A stretch of 64,000 bases of DNA. Source: Amyloporia xantha (taxonomy: Eukaryota > Basidiomycota > Agaricomycetes > Polyporales > Adustoporiaceae). A program made the position numbers and the translations under genes. The number at the start of each line of letters is the position of its first letter. The stretch's first letter is position 1. Positions 3,375 through 50,781 of the stretch are shown in pieces. The stretch is taken from contig JAYKKR010000012.1 in the NCBI GenBank assembly GCA_036971615.1, forward strand, positions 124,001 through 188,000, in the 5' to 3' direction. The notes under the pieces are model-generated. The model did no database searches. It was not told the origin of the DNA and saw only the letters and a program-made list of their open reading frames with translations.

Positions 3375-4127
3375 TCACTCCTCATCTGGCAACAGCACCT
3401 CTTTGAAGGCGTCCAACATCCTGGTGAGGTCGCCGGCATCGCGATGGCGGCTCTCGGCGACGGGTGACCAGGCGTTCGACGTCATCCCATCGATGGCTGA
3501 CCGCTCTCATATCGCGGTAGTTGACTTGATAGGTGTCGCCGCGACGCTATGCGGCAATCGATGCAATTTATGTGAATGAATGTGTTGAAAAAGTGGGAGC
3601 GGGGTGGCGACTTACTCTGTCATGCAGTGGATACTTCCACCATGCTGGAAGGTGACTGGGAGGGTCGTCTGGCCAAGTCCACCACGCGGGCTCGGTTTCT
3701 GTGCGCAGCTTCTGTAGCTGCAAGGATGGCGGCGAGGCGAGCGGCGTGAACGGCTGTATCTCGAGGACGTGGATCCGTGGGACGGCCCCAAAGACGGTGG
3801 CGTCGCTGATCTTGCGGACGACGTCGGGGAGCTCGACGTCGGTGACGCCGATGAGGGCGAGGCGGCCAAGGCAGTCGCGAAGGGCTTCCTGCTGAGCGTC
3901 AGAGCAGACACGTTGGGGAAGGCGAAGCTTACCATTTCCATGCGGAGGCCAATCTCCCACCGCGCCAAGGTGATGTCGAAGCCAGCCACCTTGTCTCTAC
4001 CGGCGGCGACAGACATGATGGTCGCTAGCGCCTGCTCGCAGCGCCAGGCATAGTATGAGATCAGTCGGCGGTTGATAGCGATGAGGCTGGAGAGGGACTG
4101 TTCGCGATTCTTCAAGGCGAGAGCCAT
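3375..4127 (-). CDS. Gene F1: uncharacterised KDZ-element protein with WWxW motif
   Basis: I do not recognise a named family. Exon 1 (4,127 to about 3,933) begins MALALKNREQ and is helical, with arginine-rich segments. It stops at a GT donor after GLRMEM. The next exon (from about 3,880) ends in the motif WWTWPDDPPSHLPAWWKYP. A GTAAGT donor near 3,620 leads to a last exon ending LLPDEE before a stop at 3,375. The tandem genes F2a and F2b of the inner element share this exon plan, helical start and double-tryptophan motif, which supports it as a real gene. It starts 275 bp from divergent A1, so the two probably share a promoter. Exon joints are inferred. Confidence 0.62.
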
Positions 4128-4402
4128 TGCGCCTTGGGGTGAATGGGTTGGTAGACCAAGGCGAAATGCAAGGCGAATTTGAGGAGTCGATGGTGGATCG
4201 GGTGATCGCCTCGAGGGAAGGTCATGGCGAAGATCCGTCGGAGATAAGCATCGGCCAAGTATCTGAAGGTGATCGCGTGGATATGATCCGTTGTTGATAA
4301 GGGATCAGGAGGCAGGGGCGTGAGAGATCGCCATTCAGTATGAAAAGGAAGGTGTCATGGATCACAATAAGCCAATTGTCATCTGTCCGCAGTGATACGA
4401 CC

Positions 4403-7400
4403 ATGGCCCGCACGAAGAAGCAACATGTCAGTGGCGATGCGGTGTTCGTGCGTCGCGAAGAACGGCGAACTGCAAGAGGCGCCCGTCACATACGTTCCCA
4501 AGGAAGCACCGCTACCGCGTGCGCATGTGCCGACAAGCGCATCAAGATCGCCGTCAAAATCCCCTCTAAAGCCGCGTCTCATGACGCATATTCAGAACCC
4601 GTGCAGGAGCATGTGGTGTTTGACGATGTGATGCCGATGAAGAGTCTGCACAAGGTGAGTACCGTCGCCTTATTTGGGTCGCTCAATGTCAACGCCGAAG
4701 GCGGGCAGTCGCAGAACGACTTTATGCGCGAATGGCTTCCACTTCGCGATGTGTATCTAAGCCACATCATCGAGCTAGAAGCTCCACCAGGTGAGAGACG
4801 ATGCAGCAAATGTGCTGATGCGCATGGCGATTGGCGCTGCTTGGAATGCTTTGGGCGCCCCGTGTATTGCGAGGACTGCCTGCAGTTGACGCATCGCCGC
4901 ATGCCGCTGCATCGGGTGGAGAAGTGGGCGGATGGGTTCTTCGAACCGGCGTGGCTTCGGGAGGTTGGGGTGCGGATGCATCTCGGGCATGATGGCGAAC
5001 CATGTGTGGATGCGGAGTCCCCGATCACGCCGCTGGATGGGGATGCTGATAGCGATGGCGAAGACGACGACGTGAGTGACGCCAGGGACAATGAAGAGGA
5101 TGAAGAGCCAATCAAAGCGGACTCGACGGGCGCCGCGAAGTCACTACGCGTTTGACACTTTGACCATTGTAGATGTTACGGGGATGCATAGCCTGGACGT
5201 TGTGTGGTGTCGTTGCGATAACAGGTTCACTCGAGACCTGCAACTATTGGACATGGGCCTCTATCCTGGGAGCACCAAGCGGCCACGCACTGCGTTCACA
5301 TTTCGCGTGTTGGATGATTTTTGCTTACCAACAAGGAGTGCAAAACCTCGGGGATGAATTACTACAGCAAGCTTCGACGTGTCACAAACTCCGCGTTCCC
5401 GCATTCAGTGCAGGTAAGCCGCTATGTGCATATGAAGCTGTTTCGCCGTTGAGAAGGGGCTAGAACCGTTACAGAGAGCTTCTGCGGGTGTCCCGCCAAT
5501 GGCGAAACCTCAAATACCGCAAATGGCATGGATATGGTCATGGCGCCTCCAACGCGATACCCGCCGGTGGCCTCGCTTTGGGGTGCCCGGCATGTCCCAA
5601 GCCTGGCGTGAATCTCGCTTCCGGATGGCGTGATGACCCCGTACAGTGAGCCATGTAAGACGTTTTTTGGGCGGCATGTGTAACGCGATAGCAGATGGAA
5701 GTACATGAGGAGCATCGTAATGGACGGCAACTTTAGCGCGGAGCATCTCAAGATGCGTCGCCCAGAGGATGACGTCATTCTCAGCGATGGCGGCAGCTTT
5801 CATGGTGGGCGACGACACCTACAAGAAGCATCTCGCTGTCGCCATCGAGCATAAAGAGGTCCGTGATCGACTCCTAGTGGATGAACCGTTGGACGCTCAT
5901 AGCCTATGTAGAAATCCTTCTGTCACGATCATCGCGCCGTCAACCAGGCGAATGCAGATCGCCATAACCTTGAAGCCACGGGGATTGGCGCCGCGGCCTG
6001 TGCGCGCCATGGGTTTTTCATGCCTCATGCGGTGGTTGATTTCCAGAAAGGCGAGAGGTAAGTGGTTTGCTATTTCCTTTGTTCACTTACACCCGCCATC
6101 AGACAGATGAACATGGATTACGCGCTGAGCGAGGTGCTCGCCACCATGGCGGGTATCCAGGTGCTGCTGGTGATGTACGACATCATGTGTCAATACAGCA
6201 TCAATCTCATGAAGCGGTTTGGGGAGAGTGAGTATTTGCACATGCCGCCGAACGTGGAGATACGGCGCGGAATAGGCCTGTTTCATGTCCACGGCCATCA
6301 AGACACATGCTTTCCTCGCTACTCACCCAACTTCATTCCCGGTGCTGGTCAGATTGATGGCGAAGTGATTGAAACCCTTTGGGCGCCGTTGAATCTCATT
6401 TCGGGTAGCACACGCGGCATGACCACAGCACATAGAAAGGAAGTCATTGACGATCACATGAATGATTCCAATTGGAAGAAGTTGACCGGGATGGGTGGGC
6501 CAACCTTGACATTGGTGGAGAGGTTGATTGACTGTGGTTTCAACAGCGAACACCCTTGTTAGGAAATGGCGAAAGGCCAAAGCCGGCGCCATGGAGAGCG
6601 GGGACGTGTTGGAGTTCATTGAGAGATCGAGCACGGAGGAGCAGCTAGGAGAGTGGCGAGCCGCTGAGGGCGAGGCGCTCGCCATGCGTGATGCTAAAAT
6701 CAGCGCGATGGATGTCTTTGACGTGCAGATGAGAAAGGGTGAGAGTGCACAGTATAGGGTACGGCCATGATTAATGATGTGGCGCAGCACCCACCCGGAT
6801 GCAGATCCAACTTCAACTAACGCAAACGGAAACATCGCAACATCGCCATCAGGGCGTAGCTGCATGGATAGCCACGGGCATGAAGATTCAGGAATTGCAG
6901 TAGGTAGCGTCATTGAACATCGGGTGCCAAGCTCACAACAGGTCTTAGGTTGGTCATTAGCCAACTGAAACGGAAGATGGGCCGACATCCGCTGGTGGCG
7001 GACCGCCTTGCGCTGGAGGAGCGCCGTCAGCGCCTTCAGAAGCGTATAGTGACATTCGAGTCCAAAGCGGCTTCGTATGTTCCACTTGTGGCCGAGCCCG
7101 ATGGGAATGGCGCCGCAGAGGCTTATGACGGGTCTGAATGGGATGCACTGGAGGAAGATGTCAATCCTCTTGATGAGATTTACACCGGTGAGATCGATTC
7201 TGGAATCCAGCCTGAGAGCGCCATCATTTCGCTTCCATCGCAGCTTGGCTACGATGTTGTCGTGGCCAGCGGTTTAGAGGACATCGCTTCGGAGGAGTTG
7301 AGTTTGCGCATTGGGCAGGCCAATGACGCCCTTCATCAGATTCGCCTCGCCATTGGTTACAAGTCAGTGCTGTTTCGTACGGCGGTTCGTCATGCAAAGA

Positions 7401-7967
7401 GCCAGCGCCAAAAGCTCCGGTCCTGGGACGAGGGTCATCTCCACGCAGAGGGCGGTGCTAGAGAACGTGCACATTTACAGTCAAAGCCGCCACGCCATCC
7501 TCGCTCTGAATCCGACTGACGCCATCAAAGCGCGCTTCCGTGCCATTCAACATGATGACCTCAAGGCGATCACCGCGCTGCTGGACAACTCCATCCGAGG
7601 AACACGGCAGGACAAGTTGTCCTGGATATGGACCGTAGACATCGAGGGCGATTCAACGCAGTCCAACTGGTTGACGGAGTGTGAGTGCGCTTGTGGTCCG
7701 TCCAATGCCCGCAATGCTGACTGCAGCGCGCCAGTGCATCGCGTCAACTGGTTCCGTGCAAAATCACGTAAGGATAGGTGGGCGGAGGAGTTTGTCATGG
7801 TCACGGCAGAGATGGCGTGGACGCAGGCGAGCTTCCATAACAAGGCGAACCTATGGCGCTCCCGCCTCTATGGGCCTCCAGGTCATGTATGCTATGCGCG
7901 CCGTCAGGTCTCGCTGTGGACGTGCATGGCGGAGCATGCCGCTTCTCGCTTTAATACATGTGTGTGA
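4403..7967 (+). CDS. Gene A1: KDZ transposase with CxC2-type cysteine cluster (outer element)
   Basis: Order: basic N-terminus; CxC2-like zinc cluster (CSKC, CLEC, CEDC, then H at about 4,795-4,925) ending in the LGHDGEPC segment; the KDZ RNase H-fold core with TIVDVTG (about 5,160), TGIGAAACARHG (about 5,985), YDIMCQY (about 6,175) and the DGEVIETLW glutamate (about 6,355); and a helical C-terminus ending YARRQVSLW. The Asp/Asp/Glu set expected for cut-and-paste transposition can be read. Introns seen include a 46-nt one at 5,072-5,117. Two frame breaks remain against A2: one T missing in the T-run near 5,318 and one extra G near 7,427, both homopolymers. It is either recently inactivated or mis-sequenced. 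It converges on B1, with 67 bp between stops. Confidence 0.9.
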
Positions 7968-8034
7968 TGGTTCGCCATTCACGACCCTACTAGATACACA
8001 AACATAGACTTGACACAAATACAGATCTGTGTAT

Positions 8035-9300
8035 TCAACCATAAGTCCACTCCATCCAGTGCGGTGCCTTGACATTCATCGCGGCGTGCACTGAGTCCCT
8101 CATAAAATAAGCGTAGCATATGCGCTCTCCATCGCATCTCTGAACGCCATGGCGCAGAAGCTTTCCGCAAAGCGCAACTACGCTACCCGCCTTGTAGTCT
8201 ATAGCGATATTTGGACCATCCAGCTGCATTTCCAATGCGCCGTAGCTCCCTACCGTGGTGAGAAGGTCGAACCACTGCTTGCGCGAGTTTTGTCGCGGTG
8301 TAGCGGCGTCTCGCGATTGCTGATGACCTGAACGCCATTGAAGATCGAAGACCAAGCGCTTACTATTGCGGGATACTCCACTTCGCCAAGAAGCGACTCC
8401 ATGCATGTATGTCCCGCAGCATACAGGTCGGGATGCATGATGGACATCATGGCGGATAGGATGGCGGCTGATTCACGGATGGCGGTCAACCATCGCCATC
8501 CACTCTGGCCATCTTTATCGCGTAAGCTCGCCGAAGGCAGCATTGGGTCCAATGGGCCCTGGATGTATGCGCCGTCATTCGCCAGTCATCAGAGTTAACG
8601 GATCGTCAGCGTACCGTGTGACCCAGCGCGTGCCATCCTGGAGACAGATTGACAGTCCCCCGGAGGTGTGGTGCAGGTTGATCGATCGCGGAAATATGCT
8701 TCATGGTTTCGCCAACTGACCCCCGGGGCTTTACGCATCAGTTGTGTTGATAGGTGGGCCGTCGCCAATTGTATCTCTCTCTGCCGACACAGCGTAGTGA
8801 GCGCGGTGCATGGCGGAAGATGAATGCGCCCACCTGGTGATTCACATGAAGGACGCCCGGAAGCACCCATGCTAGGATGCGCGAGTGCTGGTCGAGGAGC
8901 ACGCAGGGTTCATCTAGAACCACGGTGGTGTCTGGGAGGAGAGGCGGCCATTTAGTCTTGAGCTGCGCCTCCAGATTCACGTTCTGTCCGGTGTTGCCCA
9001 CGCCTATAGCATCAGAATAGCGGTCAATGTCCCAGGATAAGCGCACTACTTCCCAGTCAGCGCAGAATGAGTAGATGCCCACAGCATCCAAGAGTACACA
9101 CCAGGTTTGATATATGCCTTTGCGAGCTGGTGCGCGATCTGGCTGCATTCGACGACGATATCGGCGCGGATATGTGTGGGAGGCTGTGGGTTTCTCGGTT
9201 GTCCGGCTGCATTCCGAAGCTTGTGTAGCCAAAACTGAAACATATCGCGCATGCAAGCTGCCAATGTGTCGCTGAGCTCCAAGCCGCTGCCCGCTATCAT
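8035..9300 (-). CDS. Gene B1: TET/JBP-family 2-oxoglutarate/Fe(II) dioxygenase (outer element)
   Basis: The family oxidises 5-methylcytosine or thymine in DNA using Fe(II) and 2-oxoglutarate. Exon 1 (from 9,300) is the helical fungal N-terminal part; later exons include KWPPLLPDT and the CTTPPG segment. The double-stranded beta-helix core has NRETPLHRD (iron-binding HxD at 8,292-8,300), then LLRHGV (distal His) and GERICYAYFMRD (Arg for the 2-oxoglutarate carboxylate). Just after HxD the frame breaks, with one A missing from an A-run at 8,288-8,291; B2 is continuous there. It is tail-to-tail with A1 and divergent from E1, the arrangement known for fungal KDZ/TET-JBP pairs. Activity depends on whether the break is real. 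Confidence 0.87.
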
Positions 9301-9750
9301 GGCTTACAGACAAGAGATGGATGGAGATACACGCCCCATCTCGCATTATTGCTCAATCTGCCATCTACTGACCATGCTGCAACAGCATGTCCATTAGCTT
9401 TGCACACTTGTTTGGTTGATCACATCGTTGAGCAAGCGCCGGCAAGATCAGGCCCAGCCGATCGGCAAGGCGTGATCCGGTGATCGAGGCGCGTCATTGG
9501 CATGTGGACCGCGATTCTCGACCACGGCGCCATTACGCCGGGGCCTCGGCCTGTGAGATGCCGCGCTCCGCCGGAGGGATGCCGGTCGGGTCTGCCCCGA
9601 CATGGACGCTTGCAGTGTAAGAGAGATCAGTGGGGTTAGAACAGGACGAAAGTATCACCGGAGGTGAGACACGTCTGGGCAAATGTTCAGTTGGGAGTGC
9701 CCAAGTGTCTGTCATCCTGAGAGCATCTCGGTCTGCTTGTTGTCCTCGCC
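9301..9750. promoter_or_regulatory. Shared upstream region of B1 (-) and E1 (+)
   Basis: About 450 bp separate the divergent starts of the dioxygenase and accessory genes. No ORF with paralogue support lies here. The inner element has the matching gap of 457 bp (41,715-42,171). I see no TATA box I would trust. Calling it a bidirectional promoter follows from gene layout only. Confidence 0.45.
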
Positions 9751-12700
9751 ATGGGAATAGCTATCCTGCAGGCATATCTAGACAAGATCCCAGAGCAAAT
9801 AGAGCGATGGCGCAACACGAAAGGCACTGCGAGGGCACCCATTGTCGATGAGGCTGTCAATATCCTCATGGAACAATTTGCAGAGCTGACAGATAAAAAT
9901 GGCCTGAAAAAGGTCAAACCAACAGTTCATGGCATTGTCATCTTCGTCATTCACACATTTCTATAGTCCCTGGGGACCTATTTCAGCAACCACTACCGAA
10001 TCGTAGAACCCCAGGTGCCCATCCCTGGAACGAAAAAAGGTCAGCGAGGGATATGTATCAAGAGGAGCACAAAACAGAGCTGCTCAGGGTGGCCAACGAA
10101 AGGACGGGAGGACGAGGTCTGGCCCACCAGGAGATAGGCGCATACACCAAGGTAGTGAGCGAGTATTGGGGCAAACTGGATGAGGACGCAAAGGCGGACT
10201 ACCAGATGAAGGCGGATGCGTTCAACAATGACGCCAAAGAGGTCAAGGCTGGATCTTCGGCGTGAGTGGGAGCGCGACCTTTGTGCTAAGTTAACGGCAG
10301 CTGATGGCGACGCAGGAAAGCGGACAAGGAGCTCATTCCGTTTCTGAGGAAATACGCTCGAGAGGCATACCGACGCCATGGTGTCAGGATCTTTACGTTG
10401 AGTAGCTACAAATCTCCTGATGGGAGAGTCGTCATTCAGGAGTGAGCAGGCAATTTGTATCGCCTCTCACCGCTCTGACCGCTTTTCACAGACACGACTT
10501 CAACGATGAGATGGAGAATGGAAAAGCCTTTTCCAAGGTGGACGATTGGCATGCAGATACGATGGTCAAATGGGCCAAGTACAGCACAGAGGCATTTGAT
10601 AGCAATCGCGAGGCGAGCGTTGACAACGGAGAGGGAACGTCTCGCGGCACACGGCGAGAGCTGCTGGTCGACGATGGCGGTCTCCCGTTGATACCGCCAA
10701 TGGATGGCGAGGATGCGCCATCCCTGCCTGTGATGAAATCCATGATCAGAGACTTTCTGTCTACTCACTACCGTAAGTCTTGATCCACACGGCGCTCACA
10801 AAGACGCTGATGGCGCCATAGAACGGGCTGCAGGAAGCGCCAAAGAGAAGTGCCCTTGGCGCGCGCTCAAAGTGCGTGGGGCTGAATTTATAGAAGCAGG
10901 AATGGTGCCAGACGGCTTCCAATTCGACGATCCGTCGCATATGGTCAGGAAGGACATCATCGCGGTCCTGCATCATTGGAGAGCGGCGCAAGAGGCAAAC
11001 AAGGGGCAGTGCGCGTTCCGCTTCAAGGCATACCTGAAGAGCAGGGGGACGAGGATTCGGAGCTAATCCCTGCTGTGTATGAGGCGGCGAGAGCACCCAA
11101 AGGCGCTAAAGGCAAGGCGGGCCCCAAAAAGAAGAAAAAGAAGGCGGTGAAAAGCGGCAAGGGCAAAGGCGTGCAACGTCTCAGCACCGATGACGATAGC
11201 GCCGTGGACGACGACACCGAGCACGAGACTTTCAATCTGGACATCGACGTCGGGTCAACTTCCGACGAAGATGATGACAGCGAAGATGCAAAAGGCGCCG
11301 CCCCCAATTGGGCGCTGCTTTCACGTAGACGGCGTCAGCAATGGCTGGAGGCGGCATCGCCATCGCCAGAATTTCGCGTGATCGTGGACGCGCTGCCTCG
11401 CATGATGGTAGTAACTTCATTTTTCTCCGTAAACTAAGGCTTACCTTGCGAGTGATAGAGTGGGCTGAAGACGACAAAGCGGGCACCGGAAGGCGCCGAC
11501 TGGGCGACCTGGCACAACCCGCATCGACACTTGTCCTATATGGTTCATCGCCACGCCAATGGGCTCGATCCAGTGCTGAAGTGGCTCGACTCGAAGCCTT
11601 ATTTGAACAAGTCCGGCAGGCTGACAGGGGACGTCGGCATGATCGAACAAGTGCTCCTCGTGATCGCCATGATAAGCCGCGATCTGACGGCAGCACAGTT
11701 CGCCTTCCAGGATCCCGACGCCCCGCCTTCGGATATTCCACGCCATGTCAGCGAGAGCGCCATACCCTTCGCCGTGATTGCCCAGAGACTCGACCCACAT
11801 GTATCATCGTTGTGCGCCCTGGTGAAGCAGGCCCAATCTGTGCAAGGCGATGCGCCATCCATGGAAGGTAGCTCTGTCACCCGCAGTAGCACTGCGGCCG
11901 CGGCGCAGCCAACACCTTTGGAGGCCCCACCACCGGTGTTGAAATATGGTCCACCACCGCCCCACGTTCCCAGACAGGGGAAGCCATCACCTCGCCCTCC
12001 CATGATGCCCACTGGGAATCTCAACAAGGGTCCACCTCCCCCACTCCGTCCGAAGCCTCGCCATTTGCAAACCCTGCGGGCGGAACAGGAGCGTCGTACG
12101 CCGGACCCGCCAGCGGCATTGGCGAGGGAAGCCGCGCCAATCCTCACATCCCCTAAGATAAGGCGATCGCGAGACGCGCATAATGGCCAAGTAGCTCAGC
12201 AATCCAGCTCGCCGTTGCCGGAACCTCTGCGAGGCACGCAAAAACATTCGCTTCCGTTTCCAGTCACAGGAAAACCGCCTCCAGCAAGGCCGCTAATGAC
12301 CACGGGAAGATCGGTCTTTCCATCCATACCTAAGCGTGCCTTGGGTATGAGACCGCGTCCACAACTAGAAGAGAGACCGCCATCAATTGACGGCGCACCG
12401 CCTTCCTCGCCAATGGCGCCAGGGCGCGCACCACCATCCTCCCCCATTGCGCCCAATGACGCAACTGTCCGCCGCGGGAGTATGGATTTCTCCTCCTCTC
12501 CACCTATTGCGATCAATCAGCTCTCACCCGTTCGAGATATGAGGGGCCTACAGGTTCATTTCTCCGACCGTGAAAATCATGACAGTGAAGACGAGAGCGA
12601 CGGCGAGGCCAATCGTGGTCCTTCTCCCTCACTTCCTGTGCCAAAGCGCAAGACACGCCATACAGCTCGGCAGGCGAAGGAGATCAATATTCAGGCACTG

Positions 12701-13300
12701 CCAACGGCCGGCGGGTCCTCGATCACTGGTGCTCTTAACGACATGAAGGTCGCCACCCACACTCGTCAGAAGACGAAAGCTAAGGAGGAAAAGTTGAAAA
12801 AGCAAAGTCACCGCGTGAGCGAAGAGGAGGAAGAGGAGGAGGAAGCAGAGAAACCACCTCAACCTCGTGAAAAGCGAAAAAAGTCGGGTCGCTCAAAGCG
12901 AGCTCTGGCGGAGACTAATAGCGATGGCGAGGAAGAGCAGGGCGAGCCTGCCCCCGCCATTCGTAGGTCATCGCGCAAGACAGGTAGGGAGCTCAGCCCC
13001 GACCCACTAAAGCGCGTGGTCGCCGTTAGAATACTATTTCTCATGTACACTACCTCGCATTTAAATTCAATGGCGATGATTGAACTCAGCGCTGCGAAGG
13101 ATGGCGATGGCGTGCCGCTCCCTGTGCAAGCCCCCGTGGCGCACTGTGATGCCGAGGGTGTTGCCGTCATCGCAGTCTCAATCTTACTGGTCGCTGGAGA
13201 GTGTACACAATACATTCGTTTGAAATTACAGCGAAGTTACAAAAACAATTATCTAAGGCGAAGCGGGAGGCATCTCGGCGTCGTCGACAGCGACGGGTGA
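9751..13300 (+). CDS. Gene E1: KDZ-element accessory protein, acidic/basic and proline-rich tail
   Basis: A multi-exon gene matching E2 in the inner element. Order: short helical exon from MGIAILQAYL; a segment with YTKVVSEYWGKLDEDAKADY that faintly resembles an HMG-box helix (not secure); an exon with the RRHGVRIF pattern shared with E2; a conserved block around FDDPSHM and AFRFKAYL; a lysine-rich stretch followed by an acidic one (about 11,130-11,290); another conserved block around LDPVLKWLDSKPYL (about 11,560); then a proline-rich tail and glutamate/lysine runs. One G is missing in the G-run near 11,045, shifting frame. The last 90 or so codons (after about 13,020) overlap C1 and may be non-coding. 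Function unknown; the charged tails suggest chromatin or DNA contact. Confidence 0.66.
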
Positions 13301-13777
13301 TGTTGCGGCATCAGGCTCTCGCTCCTCCGCGGCCACGCTCGCCATCTCGTCGTCGTCGATCTCCAAGGAGAAACGCCTGATTGAAGGTGTGGAGCCACCG
13401 GCGGGCGTCGACAGAGCTTCACTCGTGAAGTCCGATTGATCTCCTACCGAGCCCCGCTCTGAGGTAGACCACGAAATGGGAGTGGCTCCCTCGTGAGCGC
13501 TGTCCATGATCGCCCTCGCCTTGCGCCGTCGTTGCGCGTCCTGTTCTGCCTTCTGCACGAGCTCCACCGACAGATGCACCTTGTCCAATAGCGTCTCGGC
13601 CTCCGCGTCGTTGTGGCGAGCGACGTCACGGCGCACTGACTCAAACTGCGCGATGAGCCCCTGTAATCTCGCCTCACCTGCCTCAATGCCCGCCATCGCC
13701 TGCCGCGTCCTCTCGCTCTCATCGCGAACGTTGTCCATCAACGTGTCCACGCGCACCTCCATGTTCGCGACTTGCGC
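13253..13777 (-). pseudogene. Gene C1, 3' piece (coiled coil and C-terminus), cut off by the Ty3 insertion
   Basis: This carries the C-terminal part of the outer copy of gene C: a heptad-rich stretch (from MEVRVDTLMD) and an acidic tail ending MPPASP. The reading frame is open up to the LTR at 13,778. Removing the retroelement and one copy of GCGC joins it in frame to the piece at 26,183-27,954 (LGA then QVANMEV). It lacks its promoter and upstream exons, so it is a displaced fragment. Its 3' end overlaps the last part of E1 on the other strand. Confidence 0.85.
13774..13777. other. Target-site duplication (GCGC) of the Ty3 element, left copy
   Basis: GCGC directly precedes the TGTAAGG start of the left LTR. 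The partner copy is at 26,179-26,182, directly after CCTTACA. Four bases is short, but the in-frame rejoining of C1 with exactly one copy supports it. Confidence 0.82.
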
Positions 13778-18349: not shown

Positions 18350-18426
18350 GGAACCTACCGGAACTGCCTCGTCGGCCGCCCGAGTTCCACCCGCAGGGGC
18401 GTTATACGGACGAGCGGAGGAAGGCG

Positions 18427-34985: not shown

Positions 34986-35067
34986 CCCTGCCCCCGCACA
35001 CCTCGCCGAATATTTAGCATCTCCCACCTGGTCACCTCGTGGCCAAAGTGGTTCCCATACACGTGTC
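34986..35067 (-). promoter_or_regulatory. Duplicated upstream block of F2b
   Basis: About 80 bp upstream of F2b match the region upstream of F2a (36,491-36,571), sharing GAATATTTAGCAT, CACCTGGTCACCTCGTGGCC and CACGTGT. The E-box-like CACGTG and the AT-rich GAATATTTAGC are the strongest parts. The match beyond the coding part shows that promoter and gene were duplicated together. Confidence 0.62.
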
Positions 35068-36455: not shown

Positions 36456-36490
36456 GGCAGGGAACAAAGATGAGGCGATTGAACTGGGGC

Positions 36491-36571
36491 GCTGCCTCCA
36501 CACACTTCGTCGAATATTTAGCATATCGCACCTAGTCACCTCGTGGCCAAAGTTATTCCCACCCACGTGTG
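36491..36571 (-). promoter_or_regulatory. Upstream block in the F2a/A2 divergent promoter
   Basis: This is the counterpart of 34,986-35,067: TCGAATATTTAGCAT, CACCTAGTCACCTCGTGGCC and CCCACGTGTG. Lying between F2a (36,455) and A2 (36,713), it may control both genes. Confidence 0.6.
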
Positions 36572-36712
36572 TACCGCGAGGTCGCGAAGCACGGTGGATA
36601 GAGCGGTGATAAACATGATAAGCCGCGCGTCTCAGTAACGATTGCTTTATCTTGAGCAGAATGACTATGGACCGGGGCTTGAGCCATCCGTCCTGCCTCG
36701 TTCATTGCAGCT

Positions 36713-40281: not shown

Positions 40282-40361
40282 TAATGTATCACGCTGGTTT
40301 TATTCCCGAAGTAAGAGTTTACATTGGCACTGTGTCATCCCCTAACGGCCCAATTCATACT

Positions 40362-41714
40362 CTATTTGTAGTACGATGTTTCCATCCAATGAGGTGCAGC
40401 CACTCCCATTGCGGTGTGGATAGCGTCTCGCATGAAATATGCATAACATACGCGATCCCCTTGACACGGCGGAACAGCATGCCGCAGCACCTTGCCACAT
40501 AGCGCAATCACAGATCCCGGTGGGTAATGGACTGTCAGTCCAGGTCCGTCCATCTCGAAATGGAGGTCGCGGTAGGAGCCGAATGTCGCGAGGAGGTCAT
40601 ACCACGGCTTCCTCGAGTTGCTGTCGCGGTGGCGCGGTGTCTCGCGGTTGGATATTATCTGGACCGCGTTGAACGGTGTCGCCCATCCCTGCATGCTGTC
40701 CCTCAAGGATGGGTCCTGCATCAATCTACGCATGGTTTCGCGACCCGCCGCGTATAATGCGGGATGAACTACTGCAAGGACCGCAGATAGGATAGCGGAA
40801 GTCTCCGCGATCGCAGCCATCCATTGCCGCCCGCTCACCAAGTTGGTGCCTTGCAGACTCGCGGATGCATTGAGCGCATGCGGAGGCCCCTGCAAGTAAT
40901 GTTTATTCCATTATTTTCTCCTGGCAGACATCAACTCACTACATGACCCTGCTGATACCATGCCGGGGATATATTCACACATCCTGGTGGTATTGAACAT
41001 GTGGCTGGGTCGCGGAAAAGACTTCCCATCTGACGCCAACCCTTGGCATTTGCTCGCGGCCCACTATGCCTGAGCTGCTGAGTTAGAACTCCTGTCGCGA
41101 TGTCCATTTCACTCTGACCTCGATGTGTCAGTTCAGTGTCTCCACACAAGAGGTCTACCAAGTGAATGCCTGAGCTGCTGAGTTAGAACTCCTGTCGCGA
41201 TGTCCATTTCACTCTGACCTCGATGTGTCAGTTCAGTGTCTCCACACAAGAGGTCTACCAAGTGAATACCTGACGTTGCGGTGATAATAAACCGGGAAGG
41301 AACCAACCGATGATGCGGTCATGCGCGTCGGTCAGAATCGACGGCTGGTTAATACACATAACCTTGTCTGGAAGTATGCGCGCCCACTTCGCTTTCAACG
41401 CGTCTTCCAGCTTGGCGTTCTGGCCGTTCGCTTGCAACCCTAAAGCATCTGAGTATCTGTCAACATCCCAAGGGATTCGAACTGGCCAGACATGAGCAAA
41501 GATTTACACTCCGCAGCAGAATTGTTACGAAACCACGATGAAGGAATGCGCGCGCCAGTTGGTCGGCAATCGCGCTGCATTCGCCGACGAGATACGTGCT
41601 AATATTCAACGCCACAGGAGGTGGCGGTGCCACGCCGACATCGTGTCTCAGGAGGTGCAGTCTTCTACGGAACATGACTTGCATGAAAGCCGCAAGCTCG
41701 TCCGTCAAATCCAT
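40362..41714 (-). CDS. Gene B2: TET/JBP-family 2-oxoglutarate/Fe(II) dioxygenase (inner element)
   Basis: Exon 1 starts at 41,714 (MDLTDELAAF). The next exons hold KLEDALKAKWARILPD and GWFLPGLLSP, then FRDPATCSIPPGCVNISPAWYQQGH. The last exon (40,895-40,362) is the catalytic core with an unbroken frame: NRETPRHRDSNS (iron-binding HxD at 40,623-40,631), LRHAV (distal His, about 40,479) and GDRVCYAYFMRD (Arg). All residues needed for Fe(II) and 2-oxoglutarate binding are present, so this copy could be active on 5-methylcytosine or a related base. It converges on A2 with 80 bp between stops and diverges from E2. A 100-bp tandem duplication (41,067-41,266) spans an intron/exon border. Confidence 0.92.
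41067..41266. repeat. 100-bp tandem duplication across an intron/exon border of B2
   Basis: 41,067-41,166 is repeated at 41,167-41,266 without visible change. On the minus strand the unit contains the end of an intron (GGTCAG acceptor) and the start of the exon reading SEMDIATGVLTQQLR. Splicing to the proximal acceptor keeps the reading frame; splicing to the distal one would not, because 100 is not a multiple of three. Confidence 0.88.
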
Positions 41715-42171
41715 GTTTGCTAACTGTAAACTGCTCGCGGACCATCAGGACACCGGTCGCGGTTGTTTCTCGACGCTCACCCAAATTCCTTCAGTGCGTG
41801 ATATCGCGCGCAAGCTTTGTAGCGTCCCCGCCCAACATACAAGTTCGCAGAACAACTAGGACATCGGGACCACGCGGTTCCAGCATGTATGTCCTCATGA
41901 CGACCACATCCCTGTTTAGATCTCATATTGGACCCGGCGCGGATGTCCGGAACTCAGCGATTCGGTGACCAATCATAGCGCAATGATATTAGGCCCCGCA
42001 GTTGGATGTGAGTGTCGCGGTCAGTCGACATGAAACTGCAATCCGCTTTGGGACTGGTCGCGGTTCGTGAGTTGAGGAGCGCCTGGCAAAGCGCGTCCAA
42101 TTCCACAACAGGAACTTGTCACTAAATTCCAACACTCATCTGCTCACGCGACAAACCATAAAACGAACAGT
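41715..42171. promoter_or_regulatory. Shared upstream region of B2 (-) and E2 (+)
   Basis: 457 bp between divergent starts, matching the 450-bp gap between B1 and E1. No supported ORF. No clear sequence block is shared with the outer copy by eye. Confidence 0.42.
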
Positions 42172-45100
42172 ATGAGTCTTAAAGGCATCCACACCAGCTC
42201 TTTAGGTGATGAGCTCGAGCTTTTCAAGCCTGCGGACAGGAACGCGCGCAAAAACATCATCGACACGACCTTGATAAAATTACAGGGAGAGCATGCGACT
42301 CTTGCAAAGCAGGACAAAGGTGGCTTACGACGTGTATGTTAGCTGCAATTCTCTGTGCAACGAAGGCTGACAGTAGGGTAGCAACTCTCGGCATGGTTTC
42401 GCAACGGTGCTCGAGGCAGCGGGCGAAAGAAGCCAATGAGATGGGGCGGAAAAGATCAGGCCCTGAGCAATTCGGGCTTGAGAACAGAGAACTCGTTAAG
42501 GCGGCTTCGAAGGAGATCACGAATGGAGACGGTATAGGCAACAAGAATATCGGCGCGTGGCCAGCCGCGCAAGCTCGGCTTTGGAAGGCACTCAGCGCAG
42601 ATGAGCAAGCTGGATATATCGCGAGGGCGAATGCCCCGTCTGAGGCCAAGCGGCCTGCAAGCTTGCCGTCGCGGAAGTATGTGCCTCTCCGTTTCGGTCG
42701 CGCGTCGAGCTAAAAGTTGTATAGAGTCATTCAAAGGAAACTGGTGCAGCGCCTCAAAGCATTTACGACTCAAATCTATTGTGACTACGGTGTACGAATG
42801 GTCGCGTTTTCCGCGGTTCAAGTGGGACCTGAGGAAATCTTGGTGGATACGTGAGGTTGTACTTTGGCGCGACAATTTAATACTGACATGCATAGCAGGC
42901 ACGATTACAATAAAGACTTAGAAGGGCACCCCCATTCACAGACATGCCTAACTGGGATGAAGACACACAAACCCAATTCGGATTATACAGTCGCAATGTG
43001 TTCCTGGATGGAGTGGTAGCAGATCAGTCACAAAGTGCAGCGATGAGGAAGGTGCGAATAAGGGAAGCCATGGACGTGGATGCGGAAGGCCTTCCGCTGA
43101 TTCCAGTGCCAAAGGCAGATGAAGGCCGCGAGAAGCTGGACGACTTGAAAGCCATGCTCCGCGAGTTCCTGAACATTCATTTTCGTGAGCTCGTATTTCC
43201 GCTCGCACACGCGGTCTCTAACGTTTTGGCAGAGGCCGCGACCGGCAGCGCAAAAGCCCGCGCGCCGTGGACCCATATCACGCAGAATCCGTCGCTTTAT
43301 TTCGAAGACGAAATGACGCCGGACGGGATGGGTCTGCGCGATCCTTCGCACATGACGGATGGACCCCTCAGGAGCTTGCTACAATACTGGCGCGACCGAC
43401 AAGTAACCAACGGCGGCCACTCTCCCTTCCGGTTCAAGGCGTATATGGTCAAGCGCGACGATGCCGGCGATGCGATAATGGCGCGGGCCGAATACAGCGA
43501 GGCCTATATCGAGGAGCGGAAGAAGCCCGCGCGAAAGCATAAAAAGAACAAAGGGAAAGCGAGCAAGAAGGCGCGAGGAAAGCGCCCTGCCCGCGCAGTC
43601 CCCGGACGCGGTCGTGATGATGACTCTGAAGATGATGAGGTTGATCGCGACTTTGGAGACGAGAGCGACGATGCCTCCGGTGATGAGAATGACCCCCTAC
43701 TCATTTGCGAGAAGCCAACAAACTGGGCTTTGAAATCGCGGACACGTCGAGACAAGTTCCTCATGGCAATTGGAACGGGCGAGGTCTATTTTGAAGTGGT
43801 TCACCATTTGCAGAACTTTATGGTGAGTGGCGCGCGGTCTCATATCATACCGCAACTAACCCTGAATCTGCAGCGCGGCACTAAACCTGTTCCCCAGGCG
43901 CTGTGCCAACAGGGCTGGACGTCTTGGGAGTATACGGAAAGATACCTCCCGCCGGATGTGCACAGTGATCCGAATGGGCTCGACGAGATCCTCCAATGGA
44001 TGGATGATGCACCGTATCTGGATGAAGAAGGTAACCTCCCGCGCGATAGCGCCGGGTACAGCGCGATCATTGAGCAGTTCATTCTCATCGCGGGACTAAT
44101 CACGCGCGAGTTTGAGGTTGTTCAATTTGGGTGGGAGGAAGAGGAGGACGCCGCACAGTCAGGCATTCCTGCACATGTCGTCGGCACACAGATCGACTTT
44201 ATGGACGTGGTCAATCGAATCGACCCAATGCTGAGGCTCCTCTGTGACGTAATGAGGGAGTCGGAGGCGCAGGCAGCTGCCCTGCCCGGCACACACACTC
44301 ACCACTGGTGGAGAATCATCGCGGTCCAATACGGTGCAACCGCCATCACCTAACATTTCGAGCGGTGACAAAGGTGGCAAATCTCAGGACGCAAGGTTCA
44401 CAGATTCAGGAGCTACTGAAGAGCCTACCGCGGGATCCTCCACACAGCGCGAGCACCTTCACAATGAAGGAAAGTTGGGTCGCGAGGACGCGCGACAGTC
44501 CTTCTCTCGCGCGACAGTCCTGGAGACCGCGATCAAGGGGAAGGCAGCCTCGAAGATGCCGATGACGATTCCAAGTTGAGACAGCTCAATGAACACCTAG
44601 CAGCGACACAGAGGGCGCTAGATGCTATGAAGAAGTCGAAAGAGACGGCCAAGGCTGCCGTTCGAGCAAAACCTCCACCTGTTGCGAAGAAACAGCTCGC
44701 GCGTGTAGATCCGGACAACGCGCAAGGGATTCAAGAGGCCCGTGCCTCGAATAAAAAGGACAACCAGAGCGGGACAGAGCGGGAGGAACTGGCTATAATG
44801 AAAGAGAAGGAAAGGTTACAGAGGAGGCCGAAGACGACCGGGCATGGGCGGAGGGATTAGCGCGAGAGGCGGCCAAAAAGGAGCGCGCTGCTGCACACCA
44901 GAAGAAGGTCGCGTCCCGCGCATTGAAAGAGCAAGAGATGGATAAGCAAACAAAACAGAAGGCTGTCGACCACATCGCGCGGATCAATTTGGATCGTCAA
45001 GCCTTGAAGGAGAAAGCCATTGAGGACAAGCGGGCGCGCGTGGCCCTCGCGCAGGCGGGCCCTTCGCGACCCCCTCAAGAAGCAGCGGTGCCAGGGGCAG

Positions 45101-45879
45101 GTGGGCACCTGAATGCCGACTCAATGCCATGGTTCCGACCAAGCGGACTGCAGCTCAGGGCCCTGGAGAAGCACGGCTCGCCTTGCTTAACAAAGTGCGA
45201 GACCGTCTTGGGAGCCAGCCGCCTGTCGCGGCAACCATAAAGCCCATCACCCAAACTGCACCGCCTGCGCTGGGAGGAATGGAGTGGCGTACAGCTGTCG
45301 CGGGGCCAAGCGTGGCGCGGCCCGCGCGTCCTCAGCCGCGACCGCGATATCAAGGGGCCAGCCACGAGAATACTGCTGGCCCGTCATCCATGTATGTTCA
45401 TAGAACTCCCAGTTCAAGCGACAAGGACAGTACCAAATCCGACGAGGATGGGTCACCTTCGCGACCTGCTCCCGGCGCATGGACGAGGGCCAAGGCGCAG
45501 AAAGAAAAGCAGGCCATGCTTCAAGCGCCTACAGGAGGATCCGTGTCAGATGCGATAGGACAGCCGCGAGCGACACGCGCAACGACGCGGAAACAGGATA
45601 GGACTGGGAAAGGTGATGCAAGGCCAGATAGCCAAGACGGTCAGGTGAAATCCAATGCAAGTCCTGCGAAGCGCGTGCCTCGCGCAAGCACGCGCGCGTG
45701 CTACGGTTCGCGCCACCGGCCGCGCGAGAGGTCGCGGTCGCGGTGCCGGGGGCAGAACGCCTGCTTTACCCGCTCTCGAGGAGGAGGATGAGGAGGACGA
45801 GGAGAAAGATTCAGAGGAAGATGATAATCCTCGTCCTAGGAAAGTGGCCAAACGTGGCCATGGACAAAGAAGAAGATGA
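42172..45879 (+). CDS. Gene E2: KDZ-element accessory protein (inner element)
   Basis: It starts MSLKGIHTSS. A second exon (from about 42,350) carries the segment KNIGAWPAAQARLWKALSADE, matching the weak HMG-like segment of E1. A third has the DYGVRMVAF pattern. The main frame (42,944-44,353) contains PLIPVPKADE, a FEDEMTPDGM block, FRFKAYMVKRDD, a lysine/arginine stretch and an acidic run, and WTSWEYTERYLPPDV with LDEILQWMDD. After 44,353 the coding continues in changing frames (LRQLNEHLAATQRALDAM; LKEQEMDKQTKQKAVDHI) to a lysine/arginine and glutamate tail at 45,879. Either several introns or decay explain that part. Divergent from B2 and convergent with C3. Function unknown. Confidence 0.66.
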
Positions 45880-46195
45880 GGCCTGTGATACCCATGCAAG
45901 GCGCGGCGCGTCACGCAGTCGCGGTTGTCCAGTGTCAGTTGCTGAGTCGCGGTTATTTAGTGGCGATTGTTGAGTCGCGGACGAGTTTTGGCCAGATATC
46001 TTAGAAGTCACCCCATATGTATTGCCTGTGGCGTCTGCTGTCTTATTTGTGATGTTCCACCTAATGGGCAATCTAATGCATTGTAATTCCAGACCTGTAC
46101 AGACTTGTGTTAATCAGAGACTATTGCTCCACTCTTTCACAACTTGAGTCGCGCATAAATTGGACTGGAATTATAATCATTTATATAGTAGTTTT

Positions 46196-46212
46196 GGGAC
46201 TGTTGAAGTCCC
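46196..46212 (-). other. Conserved 3' hairpin downstream of C3
   Basis: Reverse complement GGGACTTCAACAGTCCC, identical to the hairpin after C2 (33,459-33,475) and about 115 nt past the C3 stop chosen here. This match helped choose 46,327 rather than 46,181 as the end of C3. Confidence 0.6.
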
Positions 46213-46326
46213 ATGCGCTCGCGAGACTATGGTATGTACATCTAAATATTTGTCGTAAAAAGGAATCTATGCGGACGATGTGCCGCGCTGTGAGTCCTCC
46301 CCTTCTGTTCTCCACCAGTCGCAATT

Positions 46327-49033
46327 TCATGACCATCCGCGGCCTGGATTGAAACTCGCGTCGCCGCGGTCGTGCTTGGATCCCGTGTTTGCACACTGTC
46401 CTGGCTGACGTTGCTCGCGAGGGCGGCGGTAGAAGTCGCGCGCGAGCCGCGCCTTGGAACATGGGCTCTGGCACATAGGCCCGTCGAGCGCTGAGGTCCA
46501 GGACTTGCTTGCGGATGCCCTCCATCTGCCCCGCGTACCCATCGATCTGCGCGGAGATCGTGTCGAGCGAGGCTTGCACGCTCGACGCGTTGAGGGACTG
46601 CTGCACCTTCTTGAACTCCTCGCGAAGGTTGATGATCGACGCTTGGAGGTGCTCGGGCTCGATGGAGGCGACCGCGTTGTTCAGCGCGTTGACCTGCGCA
46701 CTTACCGTCTCGACGCGCGTGTCGAGATTCTCCATGGACTCCTCCATGTTCTCCTGTCGCTCCTCAACCTGCAAGACACGCGCCTCGATAGCGCTCCCAG
46801 CAACCTCGACCGCACCCATGCGCTCGGTCAAGGTCTCGAGCAGGACGCGCGCCTCGCCCGTGCCCCCCGCAACCTCCACTGCCGCCAAGCGCTCCGTCAA
46901 GCTCGCGACATCCTCCTCATAGTCTCCAAACGACGTTTGGACCTTCTCCATGAGGAAGTCCCTGAGCTGCACGGCAACCCGGTGGCCGTGTCTTCCATCT
47001 TCTCCAGGGGCACTATGGCAGCCTCATGCCTCCTCGCGATGTCCTCGAGCATGGCGACCTTTTCTTGCAAGGTCGCGACCGTCTCCTTGAGCTGTGCGGT
47101 CTCCGCTTGGTCGTTGGCGAGCTCCTCATGCACGTCCTCGGAGTGTGTCTCGCGCGCGCGATGGGCCTCCTGGTTGGTCTCCGCGAGACCGCGGTCCTCC
47201 TCTTCGCGCGCAATGGGACTTTGCTGCGGCTCGTCGAACCTTTCGAGTCGGTGATGCTCCCACTGGTTCTCCTGGTCCTTGAGGTAGACGTAGGCGGGCG
47301 GTGTGGGGTCACGGCGAGGTGGCGCGGTCTTGAGCTTCTTCGCGCGGCTAGGCCCTGCGACTGGCTCGACTGGGTCCTCAGCGTCGATGTCGAGCGGCGG
47401 TGAGGTGCGCTCAAGGCGACTGTCTCGTTTTGGCCGCGTCTTCTTCACCGCCCGCGAGTTGGTTTGCCGCCGGTTTTCTTCGCCTGAGCCAGGTCGGCCT
47501 CATAGTCCTCGAATAGCTGGCCGTTGGGGAGTATGTTCTTGCTGTCGCTGTCCTGGTGCAAGAAGCCCAGGTCTTTCACCCAGACGGTCCATGCTGGCGG
47601 CGCAACCTTGTCGCGGATGCATTTCTGCGCGTATTCTTGAAACACTTTTGCGGTAGCCGTCGCGGTCTGGTGGCCAGTGATCGCCTTGCCGTTGGGTCGC
47701 CGAGGGACCAGAGAGCACTTGCCCTTGTTGCGCGCGCAGTACATGCAGCGCCCGAAGTGTGATGTCGCGACCATGCACACCTTTTTGGCCTGCGCGCATA
47801 CACCACAGCTGACGACCTACAGACCAGGAGGTGAGCGTAAAACGTTCGCGACGAGGCAAGTACTTACAGATTTGACTGCTACTGCAGACGCCTCTTCGAT
47901 CCTTGCAGCCTCTGCAGCGGCCCTTGTGGTGTGCTCAGGCTGCTTCTCCTTGGTGCGTGTAGACCGGCGCGGCGCATTCTTGCCTGCGGTCTTCTTCTCG
48001 CCGTTGCGCGGAGGCGGCGTGTCCTCCTCGTCCTCCTCCTCGTCCTCCTTGTCCCCATTCTCATCGTCCTCCTCTTCTTCCTCGTCGCGTCCACCCACCA
48101 CTTCCGCCTCCACCTCTTCGTCACGCGCCCGCTTCTTGCCTTTTCCGTTCGACGGCTTCTTTCCTTCAGGTAGCGGAGGCACCCTCACGCAACCGGGAAT
48201 GATCGGGCTGTCGTCCGAGTCGACGAGCGGCCTCTTCAGGGATGGCCGGACAACCGGGCGCTTCATGCGAGGGGGCGCGTTTACTGGGGGCAGCGCGAAC
48301 CGCGGTTTTGTCCTCTTGGGCTGCTGTGTCGTCTCCAAAGACGCCGCGGTGGGCTGCGCTGTGGGTGCCGCCGGTGGGGGTGGGCGCGATTGGGTGGCAG
48401 CGTCTGCCTGAGCGGAGGGCTTTGCTGCCTTGCTCTTCGCGGTCTCGCTGTCCTGGTGCGCATCCGACTTCCGTTTCTGGACAGGGACGCGCGATGTCGA
48501 CGCTTCCGGCGTCGGAGCTTGCGCAAGCGTCTCGCGCGCCGCTGGAGGAGCTCCTGCTGTGAAAGATGTTAGCATTTGTCAGTGGCCTCGACAACTGACA
48601 TGCGATGTGCTTACCTCTCTTGGCCCACCACTGATCGTTCCCCAGCTCCACCTCCTGAGTTGGCCCAGGGATGACGAAGTTCTTCATGCCGCTCGAGTAG
48701 ATGCGAGGATCGTCGACTCTGATGTTGCGGAGGTCGGCGCCGTTGCGAGAGTCGGCGTACTCCTGAGTGCGCTGCACAGCAACATGGGCACGCGCAGAGA
48801 CCCGCGCACATCCCGGGAGCGTCGCGGAACGCGTGCCAGCCCTTTTTCTAGAAATGACAAAGATGTTAGCTGTTCTCATGTGAGTGGCTGTTATGTACTC
48901 ACAAACTCGGAGTAGAAGGACTCCTCGTAGAGCACGTAGCCTTGTGTGCCCGGGGCGGGCGCGCAGCGAGCGCGGCCGCCATACGCGCGGTCGCGGTGTC
49001 GATGGTGAGCTGGCGGACGACGGCGTCGGACAT
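46327..49033 (-). CDS. Gene C3: Zn2C6-like cluster and coiled-coil protein
   Basis: It starts at 49,033 (MSDAVVRQLT), nearly the same as C2. The next exon has IRVDDPRIYSSG and GNDQWW. Low-complexity basic and acidic stretches follow, then CGVCAQAKKVC ... CMYCARNKGKC with the C-x2-C-x6-C-x9-C-x2-C-x6-C spacing (about 47,715-47,812). The conserved QEYAQKCIRDKVAPP segment and a long coiled coil (about 47,230-46,520) come next. The C-terminus is uncertain: one frame ends at 46,327 (NPGRGWS) and another stays open to 46,181. The first is preferred because it puts the 3' hairpin at the same distance as in C2. C3 and C2 are inverted copies near opposite ends of the element. Confidence 0.74.
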
Positions 49034-49116
49034 TTTTAGTGAGAAGCGAGGTTAGGAAAGCGAGAGAGGCTGGAGTGGCGGTGATGGTAAGTGAGAAGGA
49101 AGACAGAATGAACTTG

Positions 49117-49166
49117 GACGCGCGCGACCTTCAAGTGCTGAACGGGTTGCGGGTTATGTCAGCAAC
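49117..49166 (+). promoter_or_regulatory. Conserved block in the C3/D2R divergent promoter
   Basis: GACGCGCGCGACCTTC and GTTGCGGGTTATGTCAGCA match 30,433-30,484 in the same orientation toward gene D. The gap between C3 (49,033) and D2R (49,392) is 358 bp. The outer C1/D1 promoter shows no clear copy. Confidence 0.6.
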
Positions 49167-49391
49167 ACGTCAACGCGCGCTCAGGTGATCGCCGATTTTC
49201 GATCGTCTTGTCACGTGGGCGTCTGAATCGATCGCGACCTCCTATCCCAAGTCAACTGCTACGCGTCTTTGTACTCTCATCCAGTCTTTCCGCTGCAAGT
49301 AGGTGCTAATACAAATTCCTATGCAATCTTCATAAGCTCATGAAAACAACTTAGCATTCCCTCCTTGTCGCGACCACACACACCGCGATCG

Positions 49392-50781
49392 ATGAACATG
49401 GACATGGAGAACCGTGAGGACCTCGTCCACAGCTGTGATGAGTACTGACAACCCATAGGCAAATCCAATCGAAGGCGCGCACAGATCTCCCCCGACGTGC
49501 TCATGTCTGAGGCCCGCGGAACTCTTATGACTAGAGGTGAGTACAGTGATCGCGATCTCCACTTTGTGGCTGATGTTAATACGACCGAATTCCGATCTTG
49601 AAGACCGCGATTCAGTGCCCCGAGACGAGAACTCGGATGGCCGCGCACGCACCCCGATTGATTTGGATTTATTTGATTTGGATCCAGGTATGTCCTCATA
49701 TCCACATGGAATGGGCACTTATCTAGCATTGGCGTGAAGATTTGAACCGCGCGCGAACCCCAATCGACCTCGACCGCGACCTCGACCTCGACCGCGACCT
49801 CGACCGCGACCTCGACCTTGACCGCGACCTCCGCGACCTTGACTTCGACCGCGACCTCGACCTTGACCGCGACCTCCGCAACCTTGACTTCGACCGCGAC
49901 CTCGACGTGCCCGACGCGGCCGCGGGAATTGTTCCAACTCACAACAATATTGTCCATCAGAGTGTGTGAGGAAGTTCCCCTTTTGGATCGAACTGATATT
50001 GATTGTAGCACTCTACCGTGACCGCTCACCTGTCGGCCTAAAAAGCGTGTTGAGGGAGGCTATGGAGGATATGGAACGCCATGGGAGTGAAGGCAAGTGT
50101 GTTCCAATTGATATAATACCGTAGGGCGAACCTCTGATATACAGGAACAGAGCGCAGTCGCGAACGGTCGCCCATCCTTCTTGACGATCTTAGCAATGAC
50201 TTCGATGAAGAACCTCAAGTAGTCGCCCGCATCAGCGCTGAGGCCAGAACCAAGAGGCAGGGTGGGGAGCGTCACGAAAACTTCAATACCCACAGCACAA
50301 TTGAACGCATTGTGGACGAAGGCCATTCCGGAATTGCTCCTCAAGTCGAGACGAGAAATACAGATTCTGCCCCTGACATCCATGACGCTCCGCGCCGCGA
50401 TGATGTCGCGGCAGGTCATCTGGGGGAAGTAGCACCTTTGCCACCTACTTCTCTCACCGCGCGCTACGCGCATATCAAGGATAAAATTAGCAATGGTAGG
50501 CAAATGTTTCATGTTTTTGATTCAACCATTCATCCAGCATAGGATTTCCTATCGCGACCGAGGCCACATATCTCCGCGACATGCGGCGACACGCTCGCGA
50601 CCAATTGATCGCGGTCAACCATGACATCGACGCGCTCAACGACATCCTCTTGTTGGAGCGGGGAATTCGGCAGCACCTGAGCACAACGACCATAAAAAGT
50701 AGGATCTCCAAGGTGGAGACGAAGTTGTGGGTGCATGGGTCTCCGTCCTGGGACGAGCACGAGGACGGTCCTCCCGAGTAG
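49392..50781 (+). CDS. Gene D2R: repeated SP/DLD-motif exons plus C-terminal coiled coil
   Basis: A short first exon (MNMDMEN) is followed by small exons: RRAQISPDVLMSEARG, DGRARTPIDLDLFDLDP, then RARTPIDLD running into a pure DLDRDL repeat (49,766-49,910), RDRSPVGL, and RERSPILLDDL. The last exons hold ARYAHIKDKISNG and the coiled coil RDQLIAVNHDIDALNDILLL, ending with an acidic tail at 50,781. D2L has the same plan in the opposite direction at the other end of the element. I know no matching family. Repetition of R-x-R-(S/T)-P-(I/V)-x-L is the defining feature. Intron borders are inferred from GT/AG signals. Confidence 0.6.
49766..49910 (+). repeat. Coding minisatellite (Asp-Leu-Asp-Arg) in D2R
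   Basis: GACCTCGACCGC-type 6- and 12-bp units repeat in frame, encoding alternating D, L and R. It looks like local expansion of the DLD part of the motif found in the neighbouring exons. Confidence 0.85.

Follow-up and report, generated by a model that had tools for sequence, protein, structure and literature searches.

Two nested elements at one locus

The window analysed here is a stretch of 64,000 nucleotides (C4:124001-188000) from the 46.8-Mb genome of Amyloporia xantha, which holds 174 KDZ matches. Two elements in this window, members of families that we number 1 and 2, share the gene order and strands F(-) A(+) B(-) E(+) C(-) D(+), with conserved gene blocks at 3.6-11.8 kb and 34.4-50.8 kb in a six-frame comparison (Table 1). 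The six-gene set had been proposed from the letters alone; it is present in both elements, and two more families agree. The arrangement claimed for its promoters and gene ends also holds in both elements, F/A, B/E and C/D being divergent and A/B and E/C convergent. Strict alternation of strands, claimed in the same sequence-only reading, fails in element 2, where two tandem F genes lie on one strand. The gene models were built with a home-made splice finder, without transcripts.

Table 1. Coordinates in the window of the two elements, their genes and arrays, and the other insertions.
Feature	Positions	Strand	Remarks
Element 1 (family 1), interrupted	1..60469	+	left end C4:123817, 184 bp left of window; TSD TGTCTGG
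Element 1 left terminal array, in-window part	1..1053		86-bp unit x12
F1, W/P-rich motif	3373..4127	-	gene model; two homologues in protein set
A1, KDZ transposase	4425..7961	+	PF18758; frame broken once in window copy
B1, TET/JBP dioxygenase	8041..9300	-	PF12851; frame broken once in window copy
E1, HMG-box protein	9751..13439	+	box ~9987-10260
C1, 3' piece	13641..13777	-	gene split by two insertions
LTR retrotransposon, Ty3/gypsy type, inside C1	13778..26178	+	4-bp TSD GCGC
C1, middle piece	26181..27961	-	carries six-cysteine motif
Element 2 (family 2), nested in C1	27962..52290	+	TSD CTGGGCC; copies on C26, C22 with own TSDs
Element 2 left terminal array	28151..28731		166-bp unit
D', inverted extra D copy	29096..30637	-	gene model poor
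C', inverted extra C copy	30691..33408	+	six-frame comparison, gene model
F2a	34202..34927	-	six-frame comparison, gene model
F2b, tandem second F, strand as F2a	35692..36455	-	six-frame comparison, gene model
A2, CxC2 + KDZ transposase	37016..40281	+	start set by homology
B2, TET/JBP dioxygenase	40362..41714	-	PF12851; CcTet structure matches
E2, homologue of E1	42030..45240	+	3' exons uncertain
C2, six-cysteine motif + coiled coil	46327..49033	-	coiled-coil Pfam matches
D2, conserved C-terminal 47 residues	49392..50781	+	gene model
Element 2 right terminal array	51352..52138		86-bp unit x9
C1, 5' piece	52298..52766	-	alignment with element 1 copies, gene model
Non-autonomous family 1 relative	53016..57804		1.6-kb inverted repeat; TSD GTCGGAA
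D1	58734..59540	+	contig C1 copy model; genome match C4:183270-183536
Element 1 right terminal array	59742..60354		86-bp unit x7

The two sets had been placed between positions 3375 and 50781. Both exist, but they are nested rather than serial, which rules out an origin by tandem duplication: element 2 (24.3 kb) lies within gene C of element 1 (18.3 kb; 18,290 bp in the contig C1 copy), and gene D of element 1 falls beyond that interval, at ~58.7-59.5 kb, close to the right end of the element at 60469. We reconstructed element 1 by comparison with four of its copies. The window pieces up to 13777, at 26181-27961, at 52287-53015 and at 57805-60469 are contiguous in the uninterrupted copy on contig C1; in the window they are cut apart by three insertions, namely an LTR retrotransposon (13778-26178), element 2 (27962-52290) and a non-autonomous relative (53016-57804). 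Gene C1 is thereby left in three pieces (~13.64-13.78, 26.18-27.96 and 52.30-52.77 kb). The reverse nesting also occurs, as an element 1 copy, C34a, is located inside an element 2 copy. Relative to the contig C1 copy, the window element 1 is damaged: A and B have one frame break each, with open stretches of 111 and 145 codons in B1 against 181, and C is split twice. The F1 model is unreliable at approximately residues 50-85, where the window and the contig C1 copy differ in frame.

Element 2 has the gene content D'-C'-F-F-A-B-E-C-D. C and D occur at both of its ends, because the D(-)/C(+) genes at 29.1-33.4 kb form a second, inverted pair; an assignment of this pair to element 1 is ruled out, since it sits inside the target-site duplications (TSDs) of element 2. 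The two C/D-bearing ends (27962-33408 and 46327-52290) are mirror-oriented, and compared with element 1 and family 3, element 2 has its two kinds of terminus in exchanged positions.

As for the other insertions, the 4.8-kb insert at 53016-57804 has family 1 ends and inverted-repeat arms that are 98.7% identical and consist of short repeats of the CATGGCGCA type. The insert is low in CpG (observed/expected 0.56). The Ty3/gypsy-type element has LTRs of 1.49 kb that are 99.3% identical, and a further copy of its LTR sequence runs from ~63054 past the window edge.

Seven-base TSDs, equal on both sides, flank all nine elements that were read at both ends: element 1 in the window (TGTCTGG), on contig C1 (CCCACGC) and at C34a (GGAACTC); element 2 in the window (CTGGGCC), on C26 (ATCAGAG) and on C22 (AACACGC); the insert at 53016 (GTCGGAA); family 3 (CGGGAGG); and a deletion derivative on C16 (CGACTGC). 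Three more copies (C12, C34b and family 4 at C34) were read at one end. The ends take the forms GAGCCC.TTCAGTCA and CACACC.T.CAGTCA, so that an element reads GAGCCC...GGTGTG or CACACC...GGGCTC and its ends are imperfectly inverted. The TSDs enclose all six genes in elements 1 and 2 and in family 3 (family 4 was read without its left end). Because the six genes lie inside these duplications, E, C, D and F are part of the mobile unit, and to that extent the earlier suggestion that the four extra genes are transposon parts stands; that they would work together as one machine, also suggested there, is a candidate reading. The six-gene module is real, conserved and transposon-borne.

Predicted products of the six genes

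Judged from its domain matches, A is a KDZ transposase. A1 matches PF18758 at 7.8e-32 for one exon and at 2.3e-46 in the contig C1 copy model, and A2 matches KDZ at 8.1e-54 and CxC2 at 8.2e-24. The N-terminal CxC cysteine cluster is found in A2; the CxC2 match of A1, from an imperfect model, is below the cut-off (0.0011). B is, by sequence, a CcTet-like, AG-type TET/JBP dioxygenase and a probable DNA-demethylating enzyme. B2 matches PF12851 at 4.1e-18, its closest solved structures are CcTet-type (5.6e-24 and 5.9e-24), and its alignment to CcTet places HxD iron ligands and an Asp at the CcTet-337 position (numbering from PMC12730594). B1 matches PF12851 at 1.6e-15 in the contig C1 copy model, where the HxD and the CcTet-337 Asp were read by eye; the window exon is below the cut-off (4.6e-05). 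Taken with PMC12730594, the TET type and the CxC2 transposase would indicate an Agaricomycete host.

Two of the four extra genes, E and C, look like genes for DNA-binding proteins. A fold comparison assigned the HMG-box fold to E1 with moderate confidence. With Pfam HMG_box_2, E1 scored 16.8 and 14.9 bits, below the cut-off of 22.4, and E2 gave no match; a PDB sequence search with E returned nothing relevant. Some KDZ elements were reportedly found by Iyer and colleagues in 2014 to encode extra proteins, including one with a divergent HMG domain, and we take gene E probably to be the 'divergent HMG' protein of that work. Gene E is thus probably not new.

In C, six cysteines with zinc-cluster spacing are invariant in all five C proteins of the four families. 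Zn(II)2Cys6 proteins have the spacing CX2CX6CX5-12CX2CX6-8C and bind CGG triplets. The best Pfam Zn_clus score for C is 15.8 bits against a cut-off of 21, and we therefore call C zinc-cluster-like only; a PDB sequence search with the zinc region of C alone returned nothing relevant. The residue three positions before the third cysteine, a position that we take to be that of a CGG contact of GAL4, is lysine in four of the five C proteins and aspartate in family 4. CGGCCG sites co-occur with gene C in the elements, and the C-terminus of C2 is a coiled coil according to Pfam matches. The C-terminal 47 residues of D are conserved in the four families. F carries the motif WW.W.D...P.WW, matches no Pfam family and gave no confident fold (predicted structure pLDDT 44). 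Homologue searches in a set of 5.8 billion proteins returned two metagenomic fragments for F and none for E and C.

Given this anatomy, we are nearly certain that both sets are single large KDZ DNA transposons, Kyakuja-like and 18-24 kb long, each with a fixed six-gene kit. TET+ Kyakuja DNA transposons of Agaricomycetes have already been published (Kojima 2025, PMC12730594), and they share with the elements described here the KDZ transposase, the AG-type TET/JBP gene and the 7-bp TSD. Two Laccaria families of Kyakuja have 5'-CA..TG-3' termini without terminal inverted repeats (TIRs) (PMC12730594), which is not the form of the imperfectly inverted CACACC/GAGCCC ends here; the elements are called only Kyakuja-like because their termini differ in this way. 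The portions of that paper covered here contain no mention of E, C, D or F. KDZ1-KDZ3 of Cryptococcus neoformans are likewise KDZ elements with a cysteine-cluster transposase and have been shown to be mobile, but they differ in size (~9-11 kb), in their TIRs of 139-241 bp, in their TSDs of 8 bp (KDZ1) or 4-8 bp and in having CxC1 + KDZ (PMC12810828). PMC7641404 cites CxC clusters in the vicinity of KDZ, and PMC8290104 places KDZ TIR motifs in its supplement. Among the open-licence papers listed, PMC12730594 was the only one that looked directly relevant; we saw none that describes C, D, F or the terminal arrays treated below, and none with both Kyakuja and HMG. A subscription paper, a supplement or Repbase may list the genes.

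Four families and their distribution in the genome

The set F-A-B-E-C-D recurs in family 3 (C23) and family 4 (C34) with the strands of elements 1 and 2; the F gene is doubled in families 2 and 3. Where the families can be aligned, identity between them is 26-57% for F, 22-58% for C and 33-59% for D; the core of A is 74-100% identical between families 1 and 4. None of the six genes reaches a pN/pS of 1 between families; the values are.34/.30 for F,.27/.28 for E,.49/.60 for C and.36/.62 for D, measured over alignable stretches (63 and 45 codons for D) at a dS of ~0.75 to >2 in the family pairs compared. With the frame shifted as a control, F, E, C and D gave 0.83-2.2, and the contrast was weakest for C in families 2 and 3 (0.60 in frame vs 0.83 off frame). 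Within family 1 the compared stretches contain no stop, and pN/pS there is noisy.

We then compared the positions of the six genes across the genome. Loci were transcribed by hand as one row per locus, further exon rows of a gene being dropped. The matches listed yielded 144 A, 114 B, 89 E, 109 C, 76 D and 73 F loci, the 144 A loci coming from the 174 KDZ matches, partly listed, after merging. The numbers of candidates scored were 150 of 207 for KDZ, 128 of 128 for TET, 72 of 267 and 75 of 286 for E, 108 of 298 and 131 of 131 for C, 150 of 233 for D and 150 of 176 for F, and the lists are lower bounds. The D query came from family 1 only and the F query from family 2 only; family 2 D and family 1 F are under-counted.

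That E, C, D and F lie beside KDZ elements had been predicted, and in this genome most of them have a KDZ or TET match nearby. Among the matches listed, an A or B locus lies no more than 20 kb from 89/89 E, 105/109 C, 61/76 D and 64/73 F loci, against a background of 13% of the genome; for A alone the counts are 82/89, 97/109, 50/76 and 60/73. Partners found at the expected position beside the listed E loci lie on the expected rather than the opposite strand in ratios of 69:0 for A, 78:0 for B, 78:0 for C, 49:1 for D and 29:1 for F. The copies behind these counts are not independent, the independent number being four families.

The exceptions among the matches listed are four C loci (two on C23, one on C24 and one on C39), 15 D loci (10 of them on C16, C24 and C39) and nine F loci (all on C16 and C39). 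One exception was read, at C16:352001-361500, and is an internal-deletion derivative of family 4, ~97% identical, that retains F and D; the deletion joins A to C and leaves pieces of both. In the other direction, E lies within 20 kb of 85 of the 144 listed KDZ loci and not of the remaining 59. One of these E-less loci, on C58, was read and has no module genes and no array. No KDZ locus lies within 20 kb of 27 of the 114 listed TET loci. Weak PF12851 matches of 23-33 bits, many of them equal-scoring, lie mostly away from the listed KDZ loci (for example C37:181255, C45:96458 and C55:498325) and possibly represent a second TET-like gene family.

Terminal arrays and a proposed division of labour

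Tandem arrays lie near both ends in families 1-3, with units that differ (86, 166 and 76 bp among them), and in family 4, 86-bp arrays lie at the right end and also where the sequence read starts on the left. When seven terminal stretches were compared, TCGGCCGA and the overlapping CGGCCGAC/GTCGGCCG were the only 8-base words present in every one, and no 9-base word was. Taking a single element from each of families 1, 2 and 3, we counted 13, 13 and 12 copies of TCGGCCGA; all 38 sites are within 2 kb of an end, and the element interiors contain none. Pairs of sites spaced by 62-90 bases number 830 in the genome; the reversed pattern has none. The right array of family 4 contains TTGGCCGA eight times, TGGGCCGA six times and TCGGCCGA once, and the C16 derivative of this family has TCGGCCGA 81 bases from both ends. 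The shift in the family 4 array is paired with the aspartate in place of lysine in its C protein, a suggestive correspondence from one case. CpG ratios of four elements (0.93-1.11) overlap those of four flanking stretches (0.83-1.36) without separation, and CpG depletion is therefore uninformative as a sign of methylation.

In our view the best explanation of the observed anatomy, to which we give about an even chance, is a cut-and-paste element that would carry its own end-binding, DNA-bending and demethylating factors. A role of C as the reader of the terminal arrays is possible, though we put it at somewhat less than even. In the full chain of steps, A would cut and paste the element; C, zinc-cluster-like and with a coiled coil for dimerisation, would bind the TCGGCCGA arrays at both ends and mark or pair them; E would bend DNA in the end complex through its HMG box; and B, as a TET-type dioxygenase, would strip methyl marks from promoters and from the sites, which contain CpG, and would thereby allow binding and transcription to continue. 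D and F would be accessory partners. From array binding by C onward we infer these steps, and that all of A, C, E and B act as described is rather unlikely.

We know of no account of how the TET-type dioxygenases of fungal transposons are aimed. A more doubtful extension of the above is targeted self-demethylation, in which C would read TCGGCCGA and bring the element's own TET and HMG proteins, the ends would stay unmethylated and competent, and reader and site would co-evolve. The element may carry its own kit for moving and for escape from silencing. The VANDAL transposons of Arabidopsis resemble this model in encoding an anti-silencing factor, VANC, which is sequence-specific and has tandem-repeat targets, with motifs that often form tandem repeats varying among relatives (PMC5735166). 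Here, in contrast, a putative 5mC-oxidising enzyme is encoded beside a candidate DNA-binding protein, and the likeness drawn is one of logic. The division of labour proposed here is also that of En/Spm (CACTA), in which the transposase TNPD is joined by a separate protein, TNPA, that binds the subterminal repeats; En/Spm belongs to another transposon superfamily, with no dioxygenase in the passages covered (PMC2613891). Enzyme targeting becomes directly testable with a conserved set of genes that includes a candidate DNA-binding protein and with a short site to match it, found only near the ends; such a set would also list the components of a very large KDZ element.

The terminal arrays could have another reader. 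In many elements it is the transposase that binds the terminal repeats, and A2 has a CxC2 cluster; transposase A might itself bind the arrays, with C, D, E and F mainly regulating the divergent promoters or repressing the element. We rate this reading as rather unlikely; against it, KDZ loci without the module seem to be array-free. In the array matches listed (contigs C1, C3 and part of C4, out of 830), each of the 11 clusters has an E locus at most 11.4 kb away, and the five KDZ loci on C1-C3 that lack an E within 20 kb also have no cluster within that distance; the C58 locus points the same way. This argument has a limit, in that the A of the module families could be the binder and that arrays were found at four of the six E loci on C1-C3, the two without an exact array both being family 4.

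It is improbable that E, C, D and F are passengers, either hitch-hiking or serving the host. Such cargo would be in keeping with the weak constraint on C and D (pN/pS 0.36-0.62) and with a deletion derivative that retains F, D and pieces of A and C, but the same six genes keep their order and strands in four families at 26-57% identity in F, all six show pN/pS below 1 with an off-frame control, and every E locus among the matches listed is near KDZ or TET. Least probable is that the co-occurrence is a counting artefact of a few recently amplified families: most of the 89 listed E loci are indeed close, non-independent copies of families 1 and 2, but four F-A-B-E-C-D families remain after copies are collapsed, and the argument rests on these four, whose dS in the pairs compared speaks against a common origin in one very recent burst.

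F and D matches repeat at ~12.4-kb steps on C16 and at 15.6-kb steps on C39, which suggests tandem amplification on these two contigs.
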